Positions 11,369 through 40,073 of a stretch of 41,214 nucleotides of DNA are shown in pieces. Within the stretch, counting starts at the first letter, position 1. Each line of letters starts with the position of its first letter. A program made the translations under genes and the position numbers. The stretch comes from Nitrospiria bacterium. Its GTDB lineage: Bacteria; Nitrospirota; UBA9217. The notes beneath the pieces were generated by a model. It saw only the letters and a program-made list of their open reading frames with translations. It was not told the origin of the DNA and made no database searches. The stretch is from NCBI GenBank assembly GCA_919901555.1, contig CAKKPG010000039.1, positions 1-41,214 on the forward strand. Reading direction: 5' to 3'.

Positions 11369-11950
11369 ATGAGAACATGGCATTCGATCATATGCCTCTT
11401 CATACTGTTCGTATCCTTCTCCGGCTGCAGCGCGAAGTATGCAGGGCCGTTTCCGGACGAACAGGGCGTTACCTTCATGGCCGGGGCTCCGAGCGCCGAA
11501 CAGGCGACAGGCGATCAGATGAAGAAATACCCGGAGGCTGCAGCTGCTCTTGTTGATGGGGCGATCGCGGCGGGCGTTACCGGCGCTGTTCCTGCAGACC
11601 GGACCCGGGCGGTTAAAGCCGTCGCCGTTGTGTTTGAGATCGGTTTTCCCGAAGAGGAAATCGTAAAACTCACCCGTGATGCGATGGAGAAGAAAATCCC
11701 CCTTTCGTCGTTCGCGAGGACCATGGAGGCCATGGTGAACCTGAAAGGCGGCGGTATGCCGTCCGACCTTGTTGTGAGGACCGCGCGGCAGCTCATCGTG
11801 TTCCGGTATTCGGAGAAGGGCATTGCAAGAGTTGAGTGGGAGCTTTTTTACTGGAGGAAGAAACAGTATAGCTGGGTAGATGCTTTTTATCGGTTTCACT
11901 CGGGCCGGCGTCCCGGCATGGACGGCATGGACGACGGCTTCCTGCATTGA
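11369..11950 (+). CDS. Lipoprotein with helical domain shared by neighbouring exported proteins
   Basis: This 193-residue protein has a lipoprotein signal ending SFSGC (lipid Cys20). Residues 20-45 (SAKYAGPFPDEQGVTF) closely match the start of the lipoprotein at 12837 (TARYTAPFADADGVAF). The rest instead matches the exported protein at 14476, with MVNLKGGGMPSDL against LANLKEMGMPRDL, then FRYSEKGIARVEWEL against LNYSERGMARMERDL. It therefore looks like a fusion of two local gene families. It ends in a short Gly/Met/Asp tail (RRPGMDGMDDGF). Function unknown; it is probably an outer-membrane-attached helical protein. ATG 11369 gives a complete signal, but the ribosome site is weak. Confidence 0.7.
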   Translation: MRTWHSIICLFILFVSFSGCSAKYAGPFPDEQGVTFMAGAPSAEQATGDQMKKYPEAAAALVDGAIAAGVTGAVPADRTRAVKAVAVVFEIGFPEEEIVKLTRDAMEKKIPLSSFARTMEAMVNLKGGGMPSDLVVRTARQLIVFRYSEKGIARVEWELFYWRKKQYSWVDAFYRFHSGRRPGMDGMDDGFLH

Positions 11951-12836: not shown

Positions 12837-13199
12837 ATGATTATTCATCGTGCGTTCACAGGTCTTTTTACGATCTCCCTTCTTGCCGCCGCGCTAGGCT
12901 GCACGGCCAGGTATACGGCCCCCTTCGCAGACGCCGATGGCGTTGCCTTCAGGTTTCATGCGCCTGCTGCTCACGAAGTGGCCATTGCCGGGAGCTTCAA
13001 CCGCTGGGACCCTGCCCGGGACAGGCTCAGCGGCCCGGACAAGGCCGGCTGGTGGAGCATAACCCTTCGACTCAGTGAAGGGAGGCACGAGTATCTGTTC
13101 GTCGTGGACAACAGGGACTGGGTCCTCGACCCCCTTGCTGTCGCCTATGCCGACGACGGCTTCGGCAGCAGGAACTCCGTCTTCTATCTCGAACGTTGA
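12837..13199 (+). CDS. Lipoprotein with a glycogen-binding (CBM48/AMPK-beta-like) domain
   Basis: This 120-residue protein has a lipobox AALGC (lipid Cys22), then a single early-set Ig-like carbohydrate-binding domain (about 36-120): FRFHAPAAHEVAIAGSFNRW, then WWSITLRLSEGRHEYLFVVD, ending DDGFGSRNSVF. The GSFNRW and YLFVVD strands are hallmarks of glycogen-binding modules of AMPK-beta and branching enzymes. Those are normally cytoplasmic; here the domain is on a membrane anchor outside the cytoplasm. The same domain with the same DDGFG-NSV ending forms the outer part of the anti-sigma factor at 13808. It lies just before the sigma factor gene and probably shares its regulation. Confidence 0.82.
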   Translation: MIIHRAFTGLFTISLLAAALGCTARYTAPFADADGVAFRFHAPAAHEVAIAGSFNRWDPARDRLSGPDKAGWWSITLRLSEGRHEYLFVVDNRDWVLDPLAVAYADDGFGSRNSVFYLER

Positions 13200-13248
13200 T
13201 CCCGGTTGTAACCTTTTTTCCTTTCCGCCGTCTTATGGGCATAAAAAC

Positions 13249-13851
13249 ATGGCCATGCAAAGTCCGCAATTGACAGAAAAAGAGATCATTGAGCGATGTG
13301 TGAAAGGCCAGCGGGAAATGTATTCCCTCCTGATCGAGAAATATCAGGAAATGGTCTTTACCGTTGCCTACCGGGTGCTCGGGGACGAGAGCGCGGCAAA
13401 GGACGCTGCGCAGGAGAGTTTTATTTCCGCCTATCTCTCGCTCGGGCATTTCAGGGGGAATTCCAAGTTTTCCTCGTGGCTCGTGAGCATTACGCTGAAC
13501 AAGTGCAGGGACATGCTCCGGCGCCGGAAGGAGGTCGTTCCGCTCCCTGACATGGCGGATACCCTGCGGAGCGGCGACGAGGACCCCCTGGAGCAGTTGG
13601 AGACGAAGCAGACGAGAGACATGCTCCAGGAGGCGCTCAATATGCTGCCCAATGATTACCGCGAGGCCGTGGTGCTGAAACACGTCCAGGGACTGGATTA
13701 TCACGAAATGTCCGAGCTCTGCGGCGTGAGCGAAGGGGCGCTGAAGGTGCGGGTGCACCGGGGGCGGGAGATGCTCAGGAATATACTGAGAGAAGGAGAT
13801 CTAAGCAATGGAACGGGACGAAAAGCTGGTACAGCGGCTGCTGGATGGTGA
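13249..13851 (+). CDS. ECF-type RNA polymerase sigma factor
   Basis: This 200-residue protein has sigma region 2 (YSLLIEKYQEMVFTVAYRVL, then AAKDAAQESFISAYLSLGHF) and region 4 (LPNDYREAVVLKHVQGLDYH, then VSEGALKVRVHRGREMLR). There are no regions 1 or 3, so it is a group 4 (extracytoplasmic function) factor of the RpoE-like class. It should direct RNA polymerase to an envelope-stress or surface-signal regulon. ATG 13249 and 13255 are both possible starts; neither has a strong ribosome site. Its last 44 bases overlap the start of the anti-sigma gene, a typical coupling that keeps the pair balanced. Confidence 0.93.
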   Translation: MAMQSPQLTEKEIIERCVKGQREMYSLLIEKYQEMVFTVAYRVLGDESAAKDAAQESFISAYLSLGHFRGNSKFSSWLVSITLNKCRDMLRRRKEVVPLPDMADTLRSGDEDPLEQLETKQTRDMLQEALNMLPNDYREAVVLKHVQGLDYHEMSELCGVSEGALKVRVHRGREMLRNILREGDLSNGTGRKAGTAAAGW

Positions 13852-14467
13852 GTTCTCCCCGGGCGAGAAGAAGGATATCCTCGATCGCCTGGAGTCCGAC
13901 CCCTCGCTGCTCCGGGAGTTCATCACCCTCCGGGAAACGGTCCGGGTGATCGAGAAATCGCCGCGGCTTGCGCCCCCTGCGTCGTTCGCTGCCGGGGTGC
14001 TGGACAGGCTTCCCGAAGGCCGGCAACCGCTGCCGGAACGGTTCAAGGAATTCTTCTTCGCCCGGCGAATGCTCCGGTGGAACATGGCTGCAGCGACGGC
14101 CGCGGCCCTCATGCTCCTTGTTCTCGGCGCCGCACTGTTCCTGTACCAGCCGGGGAAGGGGGGGATCACGATGAACGGCACAACTGTTTCCGGCCAACAG
14201 GCTGTTACGGTCCGTTTCCGCCTCTATGCGCCTCATGCGCGCACCGTGGCCCTTGCCGGCGAATTCAATAAATGGAAAGTGGACGAAACGGCGCTCATCC
14301 GGCAGGAGGACGGCGCCTGGGTGGCGGAGCTCTCCCTGGAACCCGGAACATACACCTACATGTTCGTGGTGAACGGCAAGGAGTGGGTGCCCGATCCGGA
14401 TGCGGATAGTTACCGGGACGACGGTTTCGGGTACAAAAATTCCGTTCTCAGAGTGAGCACGCTGTGA
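13808..14467 (+). CDS. Membrane anti-sigma factor with external glycogen-binding domain
   Basis: This 219-residue protein has three parts. Residues 1-85 are a cytoplasmic helical anti-sigma-like domain (LVQRLLDGEFSPGEKKDILD); the zinc-binding His-Cys-Cys motif of common anti-sigma factors is absent. Residues about 92-113 are one membrane helix (AAATAAALMLLVLGAALFL). Residues about 133-219 are an early-set CBM48/AMPK-beta-like domain outside the cytoplasm (VALAGEFNKW, then YTYMFVVNGKEWVPDP, ending DDGFGYKNSV). It overlaps the sigma gene by 44 bases. The architecture suggests that a glycan or other ligand on the outer side controls release of the ECF factor. That signalling role is inference from layout. 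Confidence 0.82.
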   Translation: MERDEKLVQRLLDGEFSPGEKKDILDRLESDPSLLREFITLRETVRVIEKSPRLAPPASFAAGVLDRLPEGRQPLPERFKEFFFARRMLRWNMAAATAAALMLLVLGAALFLYQPGKGGITMNGTTVSGQQAVTVRFRLYAPHARTVALAGEFNKWKVDETALIRQEDGAWVAELSLEPGTYTYMFVVNGKEWVPDPDADSYRDDGFGYKNSVLRVSTL

Positions 14468-14475
14468 GGAGGACG

Positions 14476-15339
14476 ATGATGCGAAAAGTACTTATCTTCA
14501 TGACGCTTGCCCTCATGGCCGTGGCGGCCGGACAGGCGCAGGCGGTCCCTGCGGGACAGGGCGGCCTTCGCGACATCCGGCAATCGGTCGAGGCATCCTC
14601 CCTTTCGGGGGAACAAAAGGCCGCGCTCACGCAGGCTGCGCGCGAAGCAGTGGAGGCCGGCGTACCTCACGAGGACGTGGCAGTCATTGTCACCGGCGGT
14701 TTATCGCAGGGCGCCGATGTTCACGCCCTCACCCGGTTCCTCGCAGTTGCCCGTGATGTTCAGGCACAGGGTCTCCCGGTACGTCCGGTCTTGAATAAGA
14801 TCGAGCAGGGATCGGCCAAGGGGGTCCCTCCTGAGAGGATCATCGAGGTGGTCGGCCGGGTGAGAGTAAACCTGGTCACGGCCAGGGATATGGTGGACGG
14901 GGTCGTGGCACAGGGGCTCGCGAAGAATGCGCCTGAAGAGAAGAAGGGGGCCGTCGAGGCCCTTGCAGGAGCACTCGAGCGGGGGGTGCCTGCCGGCGAT
15001 ATCGTTGAACTCGGACAAAAGGCCGCAGAAGTCAAGAGTTCTCTTTCACAGTTCAGCAGGGCCGTCGAGACCCTGGCGAACCTGAAGGAGATGGGCATGC
15101 CGCGAGACCTTGCGCTCAAGGCGGCGAGAAAAGCGGTGATCCTGAACTACTCCGAACGGGGCATGGCACGGATGGAGCGGGATCTGCTGACTATGCGGAA
15201 AAGCGGCATGAGCTGGGAAGATTCTTTCAGAGAGATGGGCGCCGGTATGGAGCGCTGCCGGGGAGGCATGGGGGGGGCCGGATCAGGATCGGGCATGGGG
15301 GGCGGCTCCGGCAACGGTCAGCGTATGCAGGGCAAGTGA
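14476..15339 (+). CDS. Exported helical-repeat protein with Gly/Met-rich tail
   Basis: This 287-residue protein has a signal peptide (MMRKVLIFMTLALMAVAAG, cut near AQA). The mature region is made of repeated helical units with a recurring G(V/L)P turn: AGVPHEDVAVIV, AQGLPVRPVLNKI, AKGVPPERIIEVV, ERGVPAGDIVEL and EMGMPRDLALKA. It ends in a low-complexity Gly/Ser/Met/Gln tail (GMGGAGSGSGMGGG). No enzyme motif is visible. The last helical block matches the lipoprotein at 11369, and the repeat style matches the gene at 15426. ATG 14476 follows GAGGAGG, immediately after the anti-sigma gene, so it is probably part of the sigma-factor operon and a likely target. Confidence 0.7.
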   Translation: MMRKVLIFMTLALMAVAAGQAQAVPAGQGGLRDIRQSVEASSLSGEQKAALTQAAREAVEAGVPHEDVAVIVTGGLSQGADVHALTRFLAVARDVQAQGLPVRPVLNKIEQGSAKGVPPERIIEVVGRVRVNLVTARDMVDGVVAQGLAKNAPEEKKGAVEALAGALERGVPAGDIVELGQKAAEVKSSLSQFSRAVETLANLKEMGMPRDLALKAARKAVILNYSERGMARMERDLLTMRKSGMSWEDSFREMGAGMERCRGGMGGAGSGSGMGGGSGNGQRMQGK

Positions 15340-15425: not shown

Positions 15426-15980
15426 ATGTTCAAGACAATCGTTTTCATGACAGTGCTTGCAGTTACTCTGGTATTCGGCGGCGCGGCCTATGCGATGACC
15501 CAGGAAGAGGCCAGGACACGGGTCGAGAAACAGGCCGCGGACAAAGGTTGGACCGCTCAGGAACGGTCACAGGCCATGGAGACCCTTCAGAAGCTTGTGC
15601 AGAACGGCGTTCCCGTGGAGCACGCCTATCGCGTGGTCGAGGCATCCATCAACCAGGGGATCAAGGGACAGGAGCTTGCGGAGATAGCCCGTACCATGGA
15701 GAAGAACACGAAGGGCGGCATGGCTTCTCAGAAGGCCGCTGATAAGGCCATCCAATCCATGGACCGTATCAGGGCCAGGGACAGAGAACAGGCAAAGACC
15801 ATGGACAAGGACATGACCCAGGACAGGACCCACGACAGGACCCAGGATAGGGACCGGGTAAAGCAGGATACAGGCTCTGGTTTCGGCAGCGGTTCCGGCA
15901 TGGGCCACGGCTCGGGCATGGGCCACGGCTCAAGCATGCCGGCCACTCCGGGCACGGGCGGCGGCATGGGCGGGAAATAG
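15426..15980 (+). CDS. Exported protein with helical units, Asp/Arg/Thr repeats and Gly/Met/His tail
   Basis: This 184-residue protein has a signal peptide (MFKTIVFMTVLAVTLVFGGA, cut near AYA). Residues 24-110 are helical, with the same G-V-P turn as its neighbour (QNGVPVEHAYRVVE, then GQELAEIARTMEKNTKGGM). It is followed by a charged repeat (DMTQDRTHDRTQDRDRVKQD) and a tail with repeated GSGMGHG units. The Met/His-rich tail could bind metal or be a flexible surface linker; neither is shown. AAGGAGGAG precedes ATG 15426. A hairpin terminator follows. It is a likely paralogue in architecture of the protein at 14476, and no known function was recognised. Confidence 0.68.
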   Translation: MFKTIVFMTVLAVTLVFGGAAYAMTQEEARTRVEKQAADKGWTAQERSQAMETLQKLVQNGVPVEHAYRVVEASINQGIKGQELAEIARTMEKNTKGGMASQKAADKAIQSMDRIRARDREQAKTMDKDMTQDRTHDRTQDRDRVKQDTGSGFGSGSGMGHGSGMGHGSSMPATPGTGGGMGGK

Positions 15981-15998: not shown

Positions 15999-16032
15999 AC
16001 GTGGGGCAGGATCTCTGCCCCACGTATTCTTT
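15999..16032 (+). terminator. Hairpin terminator after the helical-protein genes
   Basis: ACGTGGGGCAG (15999-16009) pairs with CTGCCCCACGT (16015-16025) around GATCT. ATTCTTTA follows as an imperfect T-rich run. It probably reduces read-through from the sigma operon into the barrel gene. Confidence 0.65.
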
Positions 16033-16056: not shown

Positions 16057-16824
16057 TTGAAGACATCGGTATTGTTTCCGGGCGCGTTCCTGTTGTGTGT
16101 CCTCGCTGCCGCGAACACCTCGTGGGCGGCTTTTCTTTTTGATGCGGGCATAAAGGCCGCTTACGAGGACAATATCAATGGCTCCCCTGCCGATGCCGGC
16201 AGGGTTGGAGACTTTTACACTACCCTCTTCGTCGCCGCCGGCGGCTACCGGGTGGTCACAGAAGAAAAAACCTACGCTGTTCTGAGGGGAGGCATTGAGC
16301 GTTACTCCTACAACAAATATAATGAACTGAATGCCGTGATCGGCACGGTGAGCGCGGGCTTGTACCATATTTCCGGAGAGGTCCTGACATCCTATATTAC
16401 CGTCAAGGCCAAGAGCAAGGACTTCGAGGACAATAATCGGGACAGCCGCTCCCTGGGGGCGGTCGTCGAGTTCAAGCAGCGGCTCACCGATGCTTTCTGG
16501 CTTAAGGAAGCCTATGAATATGAGTGGAACGACGCCCGTTCCAGTCTCTTCACCTACGGTGCGCACAGCGCCGGCATCTGGGCCGGAATCACGGCCGCGC
16601 CGCGGACCTTTTTCGGGCTTGGCTACAGTTACCTCTACCGGAGATATGACGACGCGTCGCACAACACGTCGCAATCGCACACCATTTCAGCCGCTGTCGA
16701 ATACAAGCTCTCCCGGCGGGTTTACGTGAGTGCCGGCTACGACCGGCAGTTCTCTGACGTGAGCAGCCCCGCTGCGACGTACACGGACAACATCTACACC
16801 GCCGGCCTCACCTACAGCTACTGA
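16057..16824 (+). CDS. Outer-membrane beta-barrel protein
   Basis: This 255-residue protein starts at TTG 16057 behind AGAGGAG; no ATG fits the signal peptide (SVLFPGAFLLCVLAAANTSW, cut near WAA). The mature part alternates hydrophobic and polar residues in strands separated by short turns (for example GYRVVTEEKTYAVLRGGIER and HTISAAVEYKLSRRVYVSAG). It ends in the aromatic residue Y as outer-membrane barrels do (TAGLTYSY). It resembles small OmpA/OmpW-sized or DUF-type barrels of 10-12 strands; family not assigned. It follows the sigma/anti-sigma operon across a leaky-looking terminator, so it may be part of the same envelope response. Confidence 0.78.
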   Translation: MKTSVLFPGAFLLCVLAAANTSWAAFLFDAGIKAAYEDNINGSPADAGRVGDFYTTLFVAAGGYRVVTEEKTYAVLRGGIERYSYNKYNELNAVIGTVSAGLYHISGEVLTSYITVKAKSKDFEDNNRDSRSLGAVVEFKQRLTDAFWLKEAYEYEWNDARSSLFTYGAHSAGIWAGITAAPRTFFGLGYSYLYRRYDDASHNTSQSHTISAAVEYKLSRRVYVSAGYDRQFSDVSSPAATYTDNIYTAGLTYSY

Positions 16825-36166: not shown

Positions 36167-36743
36167 CTCTTCCGCAGACCCTCACACCACGTAAGTACCC
36201 ATCTTCCGCCTTTTAAAAATTCCGAAGCTGCCAAAAGTAGTAAGAGCAGCGCTCTATAGAGGCTTTAAAGGTCAATATAACGATTTTTGAAGTGTCGTTT
36301 TTAATAAATTTGCACTTTTCAATTTACAATTTCCAATTTTCAATTCCGCTTTATGCGGGTTGGGGGCTGCTTTTGATTAGAACGCTGTATTTTTTGAACC
36401 GTTACGAGTTCTTGGCCGGTTTCCACCGCGTTGACCTGAAACGTTTCCCCTCCCTCGATGGGAGGGGCGAGGGGAGGGTGACGTTAATTCGTGCCTGTTT
36501 GCGGCCCACATCTTTATCCTCTCCCCTCGGTGGGAGAGGGCAGGGTGAGGGGGGCATTCTGTTTTACTTCGTAACCAATTCGTGAACCTTCGTGTCCGTT
36601 CGTGGCAAAAAGTTGCACTTTGTTTTCCTGGCCAAACAGTTTTTCGCTGCATCCAGCAATCCGCCGGCAATCGGGTTGTGGTATGGTTTCTCCTGTTTGA
36701 ATCCTGTTTCGTGAACTTTAAATTCTTTTATCGGGGGGGCCCC

Positions 36744-39700
36744 ATGATGCCCAGGCACAGATTCAAAACATTCGCATTTATCTTCCTCGCCCTGTTCTCC
36801 TCCGCTGCGCCGTCCTTTGCAGCAACCGATCCGGACCTTGTCGGTCTTTGGCACATGGATGGCGACTGGGCGGACGCATCGGGGAATGGCAACAACGGGA
36901 CCGCGAACAACGGGGCTATGTTCAGCACCGATGCGCGGGTGGGGAGCGGCGCCGCCAGTTTCGACGGCGTGGACGATTATGTCGATTTTGGAAACAGCGC
37001 AAGTCTTATGCTCACCGGACCCCATACGGTAGAATCATGGGTGAAGTTCAATTCCTTTCCTACCGAGTGGATCCCTTTAGCCGTCGCTCAAAAGTTCAGG
37101 TATGGCCTTTATTACAACAGTGCCGCCAAGTTCATCCGTGCCCACCGAAATCTCGGCAGCACGATCTACTGCTTGGATCATAGCATCACGTTCACACCAG
37201 GGGTCTGGTATCATCTCGTTCAGGTCTTTGATGGGACAAATCTATACATTTACATAAACGGAGAACTCAAGGTACAGGGCTCCGGTAGCACGATATCCCT
37301 TGCGAACACCAGTGACAGTGCACTGATCGGGAGGGGCTGGAATTCCGCAGACGTTTATAAATTTAGCGGCCTCATCGACGAGGCCGCAATCTACAAGCGT
37401 GCTCTGACGGCCGCTGAAATCAACAAGTCGTACAATGACGGCCTCGGCCGGGTTGCGCTGTGGCGGATGGACAATGACTGGACGGACGCGACGGGGAACG
37501 GGAACAACGGGACCGCGTACAACGGCGCCGCGTTCAGCACGGATGCGCGGGTGGGGACTCAGGCCGGGAGCTTGGACGGAACGGATGATTATGTATCGGG
37601 AAGCACGGCTAATTTGCCCTCAGGAAACGCCCCGCGGACGTTATCAGCCTGGGTGAAGGTGGGAAGCGGGAACCAAAGCAGGGCAATACTACAGTATGGC
37701 GCGACCTCGGCTTCGAGTTTTCAGTTAATGGTAGATGGATCAAGCAAGGCAACGGTCGGCAGCAGTAACGGGACTATCACCGGTACCTCATCCCTATCCG
37801 ATGGTCGATGGCATTATGTGGTCGGTGTGTACGAAGGTTCTGACACGAATGTAGCCAGGATATACGTTGACGGAGTTCTGGAGAACAGCGGTACGATTCC
37901 AGCGCCGGGTACGGTAAGCGGCGGCTTTACGATCGGAGCGTTTTTAGGGGGTGTGGGATACTTCAACGGTCTCATCGATGAAGCCGCAATCTATAATCGT
38001 ACTCTTACAACTGGTGAAATAAACAAAACTTACAATGACGGTCTTAGTAGAGTCGGTCTCTGGCGCATGGACGGGGACTGGACGGACTCGTCGGGGAATG
38101 GCAACAATGGCACCCCGTATAACGGTGTGACGTTCAGCGCAAGCGCGCGGGTCGGCAGCCACGCCGGGAGCTTCGACGGCGTGGATGATTATGCTGACTT
38201 AGGCAACAATGCAAGCCTGATGTTCACCGGGCCGCATACGGTTGAGTCGTGGGTCAAATTCGACTCCTTTCCTACGGAATGGACGCCGATTACGGCGATG
38301 CAGGCGTATCGCTACGGACTGTTTTACAGCAACGCCAACAAGACGGTTCGAGCGCACCGCAATCTCGGGAGCACGATTTTTTACCTGGATTACACCACGA
38401 CCCTGTTGACGAACGTTTGGTATCATGTTGTTCAGGTTTTTGACGGGACGAGTCTTTCTATCTACATCAACGGGGAACTGAAAGCCCAAGGACTCGGAAC
38501 CACGCTGGCGTTTGCGAATACCGCCAACAACGCGATCATCGGAAAGGGCTGGTATGCGACGGACGCATACAAGTTCCACGGCGCCCTCGACGAGGCGGCA
38601 ATATATAACCGCGCCCTCTCTGCCGGCGAAATCCTTTCATACTACAATCATCTCACGACGCCTACCGTCACGATAATTTCGCCACAGTCCGGCGTGTCCA
38701 ATAATAGGACCCCGGTGCTCACCTATGCCGTCAGCCACGGCACGGTCACCGTCAAGGTAGACGGGGTTGTCGTGAATAAAGTCTCCGGAGGCAGCCTTGG
38801 GCCCTTCTCGGACGGGCTGCACACGATCAGGGTAGAGTCCGTAAACGACGCAGGCCTCAGCGGTTACGCCGAAGTGACCTATACCGTCCAGGACCTGCCC
38901 ATGGTAACGATCAATCCCGTCACCACGCCGACCAATGTTTCGAGCCAGACCATCAGCGGAAGCAGATCTCTCGACTCCACCGTCACGGTGGTGGTAAACA
39001 CTACTGCTGCCGCAGGCATTGTCTCTTATCCCACCGCTTCTACATGGAGTTGCAGCATCAGCAGTTTCGCAGAAGGAACAAATGACATCACAGTCACGGC
39101 AACAGCGCCGGACAATCAGACCTCAGTTGCTCAGACTTCAATAACCTATTACGTCCTGGCTATTTCCAGCGTGATGGTCAGTACGAACACCATCGACACC
39201 TCCGCATCCGGCTCAGCCACGATCTTCTTCACCCTGAACGGCCCGGCCACGGCCACGCTCAAGATCGTTCCCGAATCACTGGGTCCCACGGGCACGCCGA
39301 TCTACCAGACATCAAGGAATGTCACCGCAGCCGGTGCGGCATCCTTCACCTGGGACGGCAAGGACAGCACAGGCAAGACCGTGTCCGACGAGGCATATCT
39401 CTACATCCTCGAAGCCGCGGACAGCGTAAAAACAGTGAGCTACAGCCCGTCCGCGCCGACCGGATCCGCGGTGAGCTGCACACAGGAATCAAGCTACAAC
39501 CCCTATACCAACGACCCGCTCAGCATAACCTATTCCCTATCGCAGCCCGCGCGCATCGACATCAGCATAGCCTGGCCGCCCGACCCGTTCAACATTATGA
39601 CCTCCACGCCGCACATACCGGGCAGCTACACCTTCGACTGGGACGGCAGAGACACGGCGGGAAATATCCTCGGCGGAGGGGGCAAGGCATACTGTTACAC

Positions 39701-40073
39701 GGCATCGCTCCTCAGTGAAAACCACATCATCGCGACCGGGAACACCCCGAAAATAAGCCAGGTAAAGACCGATCCCTATCAGGCGGACCTTTCGTATGGA
39801 GTGTTCATCAAAATAAAATACAGCTTATCGCGCGACGCCACCGTCACCGTACAGGTTAAGTCCCCTTCAGGCTCCACGATCACGATCATAGGCAGCCAGG
39901 CCCAGACCGCCGGTTCGCACGAGATCGAATGGACCGGTCTGGACGCCTCGGATACAACCGGTAAGAAAACCATTATTTCCGAGGAAGGCGACTACACGGT
40001 CGTGATACAGGCGACCAACCCCGTCAGCGGGACGAGCTCCACTGCAAGGGCGAATCTGAAAATAACATATTAA
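36744..40073 (+). CDS. Large exported protein with three LamG domains and FlgD-like Ig repeats
   Basis: This 1109-residue protein has a signal peptide (MMPRHRFKTFAFIFLALFSS, cut near SFAA). Three concanavalin A/LamG-like domains follow (about 31-231, 232-432, 433-633), each starting with LW-MD-DWTD-SGNGNNGT and ending with IDEAAIY-R-L-GEI. Two Ig-like units follow (about 637-810; TVTIISPQSGVSN, then VTINPVTTPTN) and three FlgD-like Ig units (about 810-1109; FTWDGKDSTGKTVSDE, FDWDGRDTAGNI, IEWTGLDASDTTG). Such proteins bind carbohydrates or surfaces. No anchor or secretion signal beyond the leader is seen. ATG 36744 follows GGGGGGG; an upstream extension lacks a signal. It heads an RHS-linked locus. 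Confidence 0.88.
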   Translation: MMPRHRFKTFAFIFLALFSSAAPSFAATDPDLVGLWHMDGDWADASGNGNNGTANNGAMFSTDARVGSGAASFDGVDDYVDFGNSASLMLTGPHTVESWVKFNSFPTEWIPLAVAQKFRYGLYYNSAAKFIRAHRNLGSTIYCLDHSITFTPGVWYHLVQVFDGTNLYIYINGELKVQGSGSTISLANTSDSALIGRGWNSADVYKFSGLIDEAAIYKRALTAAEINKSYNDGLGRVALWRMDNDWTDATGNGNNGTAYNGAAFSTDARVGTQAGSLDGTDDYVSGSTANLPSGNAPRTLSAWVKVGSGNQSRAILQYGATSASSFQLMVDGSSKATVGSSNGTITGTSSLSDGRWHYVVGVYEGSDTNVARIYVDGVLENSGTIPAPGTVSGGFTIGAFLGGVGYFNGLIDEAAIYNRTLTTGEINKTYNDGLSRVGLWRMDGDWTDSSGNGNNGTPYNGVTFSASARVGSHAGSFDGVDDYADLGNNASLMFTGPHTVESWVKFDSFPTEWTPITAMQAYRYGLFYSNANKTVRAHRNLGSTIFYLDYTTTLLTNVWYHVVQVFDGTSLSIYINGELKAQGLGTTLAFANTANNAIIGKGWYATDAYKFHGALDEAAIYNRALSAGEILSYYNHLTTPTVTIISPQSGVSNNRTPVLTYAVSHGTVTVKVDGVVVNKVSGGSLGPFSDGLHTIRVESVNDAGLSGYAEVTYTVQDLPMVTINPVTTPTNVSSQTISGSRSLDSTVTVVVNTTAAAGIVSYPTASTWSCSISSFAEGTNDITVTATAPDNQTSVAQTSITYYVLAISSVMVSTNTIDTSASGSATIFFTLNGPATATLKIVPESLGPTGTPIYQTSRNVTAAGAASFTWDGKDSTGKTVSDEAYLYILEAADSVKTVSYSPSAPTGSAVSCTQESSYNPYTNDPLSITYSLSQPARIDISIAWPPDPFNIMTSTPHIPGSYTFDWDGRDTAGNILGGGGKAYCYTASLLSENHIIATGNTPKISQVKTDPYQADLSYGVFIKIKYSLSRDATVTVQVKSPSGSTITIIGSQAQTAGSHEIEWTGLDASDTTGKKTIISEEGDYTVVIQATNPVSGTSSTARANLKITY

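Follow-up and report, generated by a model that had tools for sequence, protein, structure and literature searches.

A conserved ECF sigma/anti-sigma cassette with CBM48 modules on the anti-sigma factor and on a partner lipoprotein in Nitrospirota

What might a sigma factor respond to when its membrane-bound anti-sigma factor carries a CBM48 module outside the cytoplasm, and when a lipoprotein encoded next to it carries the same module? The question is raised by a locus of a Nitrospiria bacterium (NCBI GenBank assembly GCA_919901555.1, contig CAKKPG010000039.1), of which a stretch of 41,214 nucleotides, here termed the window, was analyzed. The first-pass annotation, made from the sequence alone, had recognized an ECF sigma/anti-sigma pair and a CBM48 lipoprotein encoded just before the sigma gene, and had proposed that they form a carbohydrate-sensing system. 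All three proteins were confirmed by Pfam searches (Table 1), and the signaling unit extends beyond this trio, reaching to about 16.8 kb.

Table 1. Features of the cassette and a related lipoprotein gene in the 41,214-nucleotide window
Feature	Position	Strand	Characteristics
Chimeric lipoprotein	11369..11950	+	BLAST: N-terminus CBM48 lipoprotein-like, remainder similar to the 14464-15339 protein
CBM48 lipoprotein, partner module, 120 aa	12837..13199	+	Pfam CBM_48/AMPK1_CBM above cut-off
Predicted autoregulatory ECF promoter, GTAAC-N16-CGTCTTA	13208..13235	+	Between lipoprotein and sigma genes
ECF sigma factor, 200 aa, regions 2 and 4	13249..13851	+	Pfam Sigma70_r2, Sigma70_r4_2
Anti-sigma factor, 219 aa	13808..14467	+	RsiW-like zinc-less domain, residues 1-74; TM helix, residues 92-111; periplasmic CBM48, residues 130-217
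Secreted all-helical repeat protein, 291 aa, Gly/Ser/Met-rich tail	14464..15339	+	Homologues in cassettes throughout Nitrospirota and in other phyla
Second secreted protein, related repeats, low-complexity DRD/Gly-Ser-Met tail	15426..15980	+	Similar to the 14464-15339 protein
12-bp hairpin, possible end of sigma operon	15999..16025	+	Consensus scan only
Outer-membrane beta-barrel protein (BBP2_2)	16057..16824	+	BBP2_2 25.6 bits, cut-off 23.7

Parts of the cassette

The sigma factor consists of regions 2 (Sigma70_r2, E=1.6e-17) and 4 (Sigma70_r4_2, E=3.7e-16) without other sigma domains and is thus of the ECF type. It reaches 107 bits against TIGR02937 (cut-off 42.9), and its best NCBIfam match is SigW with 137 bits, which is below the SigW family cut-off of 209. 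As is characteristic of ECF systems, an AAC/CGT-type promoter element, predicted to be autoregulatory, precedes the gene, and a membrane anti-sigma factor adjoins it. There is a 44-bp overlap between the sigma and anti-sigma genes, and a 4-bp overlap between the stop of the anti-sigma gene and the start of the gene for the helical secreted protein.

The anti-sigma factor has one membrane helix and a C-terminal CBM48 module. Its cytoplasmic part contains neither cysteine nor histidine, which agrees with the previously noted lack of the common zinc motif and rules out a zinc-dependent anti-sigma factor. The profile of its family matches RsiW (5wuq; E=1.5e-9, profile positions 6-74), with the zinc cysteines replaced. 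Loss of the zinc site is probable, since HxxxCxxC is retained in 3 of 80 sigma-linked relatives, which belong to Atribacterota and Elusimicrobiota. At a locus from Rokubacteria (L126:3928-5121), the sigma factor and the anti-sigma-CBM48 read as a single protein of 397 amino acids in which the start of the anti-sigma domain is missing; this chain would be either a natural fusion, like ECF52 (see below), or an assembly error.

In the partner lipoprotein, a hydrophobic segment is followed by the lipidation cysteine at residue 22. Residue +2 is not aspartate in any of the sigma-linked lipoprotein copies with a recognizable lipidation cysteine (52/52), and judged by the E. coli rule (no aspartate at +2) this is consistent with a location at the outer membrane. 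The gene in the window begins 25 bp after a gene of the inositol-phosphatase family and lies upstream of the sigma promoter. It is therefore not autoregulated from that promoter, and the lipoprotein is probably made independently of the sigma factor, as would be expected for a sensing part.

The helical protein encoded behind the anti-sigma factor was modelled with 13 helices (pLDDT 88.7). A fold search with this protein gave no PDB match below E=0.001 and returned mostly designed helical repeats, and no Pfam family was matched. Homologues of the second secreted protein occur in six cassettes, that of the window included. Homologues of the BBP2_2 barrel are encoded close to the cassette in 13 relatives, and the barrels belong to different Pfam families depending on the cassette, BBP2_2 in the window and Phenol_MetA_deg in family f9. 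In the window, a strong hairpin stands before the barrel gene, which could therefore form a transcription unit separate from the sigma operon.

The chimeric lipoprotein encoded further upstream matches the CBM48 lipoprotein with residues 13-45 and residues 140-275 of the helical protein with residues 58-190 (E=2e-30). Its similarity to the helical protein of another genome (G063) exceeds that to the window's own, and a homologue is absent between uvrC and the phosphatase gene at loci L031 and L042. Elsewhere in the window, a probable surface protein of 1163 amino acids is encoded at positions 36582-40073; it has several Laminin_G_3 domains and, at its C-terminus, FlgD_ig-like domains.

Distribution, promoter element and predicted targets

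Whether the same gene trio occurs in other genomes was one of the questions left by the first-pass annotation. In a phylum-wide search, the full-length anti-sigma factor was present in 48 of 296 Nitrospirota genomes, and at every Nitrospirota locus with complete flanks a CBM48 lipoprotein and a homologue of the helical protein adjoin the sigma/anti-sigma pair. The gene order is lipoprotein, sigma, anti-sigma, helical protein and then usually barrel in the window's family and in families f11, f21 and f26; in f9 the barrel comes first, followed by sigma, anti-sigma, lipoprotein and helical protein.

Other phyla were reached by an alignment-based scan of genome contigs, a single-protein scan having given no matches. 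Sigma factor, anti-sigma-CBM48 and helical protein were found also in Rokubacteria, Acidobacteriota, Syntrophobacteria, Elusimicrobiota, Atribacterota, Myxococcota, Gemmatimonadota, and Balneolota. In Myxococcota, Balneolota, and at several Gemmatimonadota loci, a further protein encoded 3' of the anti-sigma gene, mostly 376-444 amino acids long, combines a barrel-like part with a C-terminal CBM48. Pfam barrel models did not match these fusions, so that the term barrel refers here to sequence character as judged by eye. Outer-membrane barrels normally have their termini on the periplasmic side, and the fused CBM48 would therefore share a compartment with that of the anti-sigma factor. The fusions suggest that the partner is an outer-membrane module; for the lipoprotein as a ligand carrier or competitor, as initially envisaged, we found no support. 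In a tree of the sigma factors, groups within phyla are well supported and the backbone is weak, so that it is not established that the cassette arose only once. The f9 group is placed beside an Acidobacteriota sequence, which makes horizontal transfer likely.

The element GTAAC-N16-CGTC (N17 in one case) precedes the sigma gene in all 17 window-type relatives with complete upstream DNA (17/17), and a GTTTAC-N-CGTC form is found at this place in most f9 relatives. In 13 cassette-bearing genomes, a strict pattern yielded 25 sites versus 0 control matches, with at least one site in each genome (13/13), and no site was obtained from 13 Nitrospirota genomes that lack the cassette. Ten of the 25 sites precede sigma. 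The other 15 comprise one at a contig end, one each before genes for a glycosyltransferase, a DUF2202 protein and a DUF5666 protein, and 11 before genes for secreted low-complexity proteins; among the readable non-sigma targets, 13 of 14 look secreted, 11 of these being of low complexity (signal peptides, low complexity and the glycosyltransferase assignment were judged by eye). Neither sugar-degrading enzymes nor chaperones, proteases or outer-membrane assembly genes appear among the predicted targets. Several of the target proteins (L081, L082, L093, L099, and L102) are marked by striking repeats, such as TGTGMTGT... or N-termini rich in Met and Gly that precede a conserved secreted domain.

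A promoter search near the locus had originally been suggested as a way to identify the regulon. In the window's own genome, the search revealed the element before the sigma gene (Table 1) but no convincing further site. A candidate at L072 was rejected as it lies within an oppositely oriented reading frame, and one at L104 because it has two mismatches and control counts are equal. The pattern alone is not enriched in this genome and draws its weight from conservation across relatives. In the other phyla, a loose pattern was found before 2 of 24 sigma genes versus about one expected, and the sites in Rokubacteria and Balneolota look good by eye. The sole GH13 gene found in the window's genome codes for a branching enzyme that is GlgB-like and lacks a signal peptide. 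With this gene content and with no sugar-degrading CAZyme among the targets, external starch use is unlikely, and a regulon for starch or glycogen use is supported neither by the targets nor by the GH13 content.

The CBM48 modules and their possible role

In Pfam searches, the outer domain of the anti-sigma factor matches CBM_48 (E=1.6e-10) and AMPK1_CBM (E=4e-9), and the lipoprotein matches the same models (E=1e-10 and E=1.1e-9, respectively), both above cut-off. In the AlphaFold model, the outer domain reaches a pLDDT of 91-97, and the solved structures nearest to it are AMPK-beta glycogen-binding domains (1z0m chain B, TM 0.88, E about 1e-6). Profile and fold thus agree in assigning this domain to the CBM48/AMPK-beta family. 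The concern that it could fold as another Ig-like module devoid of sugar-binding residues does not hold for the fold, nor for most of the residues. The module had correctly been placed outside the membrane; more precisely, it resides in the periplasm if the diderm envelope is organized as usual.

In AMPK, W100 and W133 stack on glucose while N150 and K126 form hydrogen bonds (PMC9788615), and starch binding by PTST needs the two tryptophans (PMC4339375). We counted the equivalent residues in two sets of sigma-linked modules, 70 distinct ones from anti-sigma factors and 51 small ones, most of the latter being partner lipoproteins. The anti-sigma modules keep W100 (70/70), W133 (68/70) and N150 (68/70), and the equivalent of L146 is phenylalanine in 66 of 70; at the position of K126, lysine is never found (0/70) and methionine is present in 62. 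In the small sigma-linked proteins, both tryptophans and the asparagine are near-invariant, and the K126 position is replaced in every case (51/51), by methionine or leucine in most. CBM48 proteins not linked to a sigma gene almost always retain the lysine (37/37 for multi-CBM proteins, 12/13 for small proteins). The ligand site is thus kept overall with one characteristic change. Such a pattern is what a ligand function preserved with a shifted specificity would leave, but it is not proof of sugar binding, and a glycan is a plausible ligand of the modules. From the carbohydrate-sensing proposal we therefore retain a single system with CBM48 on anti-sigma factor and lipoprotein, a conserved trio and promoter, and a near-invariant aromatic site, but not the carbohydrate ligand as such, given the replacement of K126 and a regulon without sugar-degrading enzymes.

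CBM48 modules are also encoded apart from sigma genes. Small CBM48-only proteins without a lipobox, probably cytosolic, occur elsewhere in the same phylum (L050, L064-L070), and the AMPK lysine is present in almost every small CBM48 protein without a linked sigma gene. Clusters for secreted multi-CBM48 proteins and a CBM48 lipoprotein without a sigma gene (L145, L147, L148, L150, L154, L155, and L178) are found in Eisenbacteria, Zixibacteria, Krumholzibacteriota, Cloacimonadota and others, and here too the AMPK lysine is kept.

We consider it fairly probable that the cassette works as a trans-envelope switch with a CBM48 on both sides of the periplasm, in which the sigma factor is freed upon a change of periplasmic state. 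The RsiW-like cytoplasmic domain of the anti-sigma factor would keep the ECF sigma factor inactive, its single helix would span the inner membrane, and its CBM48 would read a periplasmic condition. The second CBM48 would be held at the outer membrane, as part of the lipoprotein in the Nitrospiria bacterium and of a barrel-like fusion protein in other phyla, and the two modules would act together, either through direct contact or by both being bound to the same glycan. A change of state would then inactivate the anti-sigma factor, probably by proteolysis as we infer from other single-pass anti-sigma factors, and the freed sigma factor would act on its own operon including the gene for the helical secreted protein and, in relatives, also on genes for further secreted low-complexity envelope proteins. 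Points that speak against this reading are the loss of K126, the occurrence of the promoter element only before sigma in the window's own genome, the position of the lipoprotein gene upstream of that promoter, the differing Pfam families of the barrels, the recognition of the fused barrels by eye and the weak backbone of the sigma tree.

Possible, though we are rather doubtful of it, is that the CBM48 modules no longer bind sugar and have become protein-docking (E-set) domains that touch each other or the helical protein, in a TonB-free analogue of Fec-type signaling. The placement of the partner module at the outer membrane, be it on a lipoprotein or on a barrel-like fusion, the prevalence of methionine at the K126 position of the anti-sigma modules and the lack of CAZyme targets would all agree with such a role, whereas near-invariant tryptophans, phenylalanine at L146 and the conserved N150 are unexpected for a pure docking face. 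It appears unlikely that the system senses an environmental or storage alpha-glucan, for which the lipoprotein would be a carrier or competitor, and switches on carbohydrate functions: both modules keep the AMPK-site tryptophans and asparagine with hardly any exception, and anti-sigma factors with polysaccharide-binding outer CBMs are known (RsgI, PMC4711584), but the predicted targets are free of sugar-degrading enzymes, the only GH13 gene found is GlgB-like and lacks a signal peptide, K126 is replaced specifically in the sigma-linked modules, and these modules are periplasmic and not exposed if the topology is the usual one. An ordinary envelope-stress sigma factor of the RpoE/SigW type, with the lipoprotein or the helical protein shielding the anti-sigma factor as RseB shields RseA and with misassembled barrels or low-complexity surface proteins as the signal, is improbable as well, as it would account for the SigW-like sigma factor, the RsiW-like domain and the barrel and secreted proteins in cassette and predicted regulon, but not for targets without any chaperone, protease or outer-membrane assembly gene, and would leave the conserved CBM48 pair without a role.

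Relation to known signaling systems

In their working principle, RsgI anti-sigma factors with outer CBMs (PMC4711584) and ECF52 sigma factors (PMC5826349) come closest to the cassette. RsgI of Clostridium thermocellum, the counterpart of sigma-I, has a sigma-binding N-terminus inside, one membrane pass and a CBM outside, and the sigma and anti-sigma genes overlap (PMC4711584). The inside sigma-binding part, the single pass, the outer C-terminal CBM and the overlapping genes recur in the cassette, which differs in having an ECF sigma factor with regions 2 and 4 only, an RsiW-like domain, CBM48 in place of CBM3/PA14/GH10, a further CBM48 protein located at the outer membrane and targets other than plant-cell-wall enzymes. 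Membership in the RsgI/sigma-I family is ruled out by the Pfam and NCBIfam assignment of the sigma factor to the ECF type and by the RsiW-like anti-sigma domain. ECF52 proteins, such as SCO4117 of Streptomyces, unite an ECF sigma factor, an anti-sigma-like domain, a membrane helix and a carbohydrate-binding domain, and autoregulation has been proposed for them (PMC5826349; PMC8999054). They are single fused chains with a zinc finger and a Pro-rich spacer and are confined to Actinobacteria, whereas the cassette has two separate, overlapping genes, no zinc motif, and CBM48 as the binding module.

With SigW/RsiW of Bacillus, the cassette shares a sigma factor that scores best against SigW models and a homologous anti-sigma domain, but it has no HxxxCxxC zinc site and possesses an outer CBM48 and an outer-membrane partner. 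Barrel, anti-sigma factor and ECF sigma factor are also encoded together in Fec-type cell-surface signaling (PMC11637429), which relies on FecI/FecR and a TonB-dependent transducer. The cassette differs in that its barrel is not TonB-dependent by Pfam, a FecR domain is lacking and both periplasmic modules are CBM48; in Pfam searches, the cassette proteins matched neither FecR nor TonB-dependent receptor models. The modules themselves resemble the AMPK-beta glycogen-binding domain in fold (TM 0.88 to 1z0m chain B) and in W100, W133 and N150, and differ from it in the exchange of K126 for methionine or leucine, the periplasmic location and a DDGFG signature.

In a search of largely open-access literature, in which absence counts as weak evidence, we found no publication that connects an anti-sigma factor of this type to CBM48 or glycogen-binding domains, nor any that describes the cassette; the latter appears to be undescribed. 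Going beyond the trans-envelope switch proposed for the single locus, we tentatively suggest that the cassettes might represent a widespread, hitherto undescribed trans-envelope class, in which the same CBM48 on the anti-sigma factor and on an outer-membrane lipoprotein or barrel, coupled by a shared glycan or by module contact, would control secreted low-complexity surface proteins, as a TonB-free counterpart of Fec-type signaling.

ECF sigma pathways are a main route by which bacteria sense conditions at their surface, and for most of them the signal is unknown. The arrangement described here is defined and recurs: both membranes bear the same module, fusions to barrels occur, the promoter element is clean and the secreted targets are coherent. 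It offers a system amenable to testing in Nitrospirota, the Nitrospira lineage among them, as well as in phyla for which almost no signaling has been worked out. It also suggests that a fold of the glycogen-binding type may have been reused as a periplasmic sensor.
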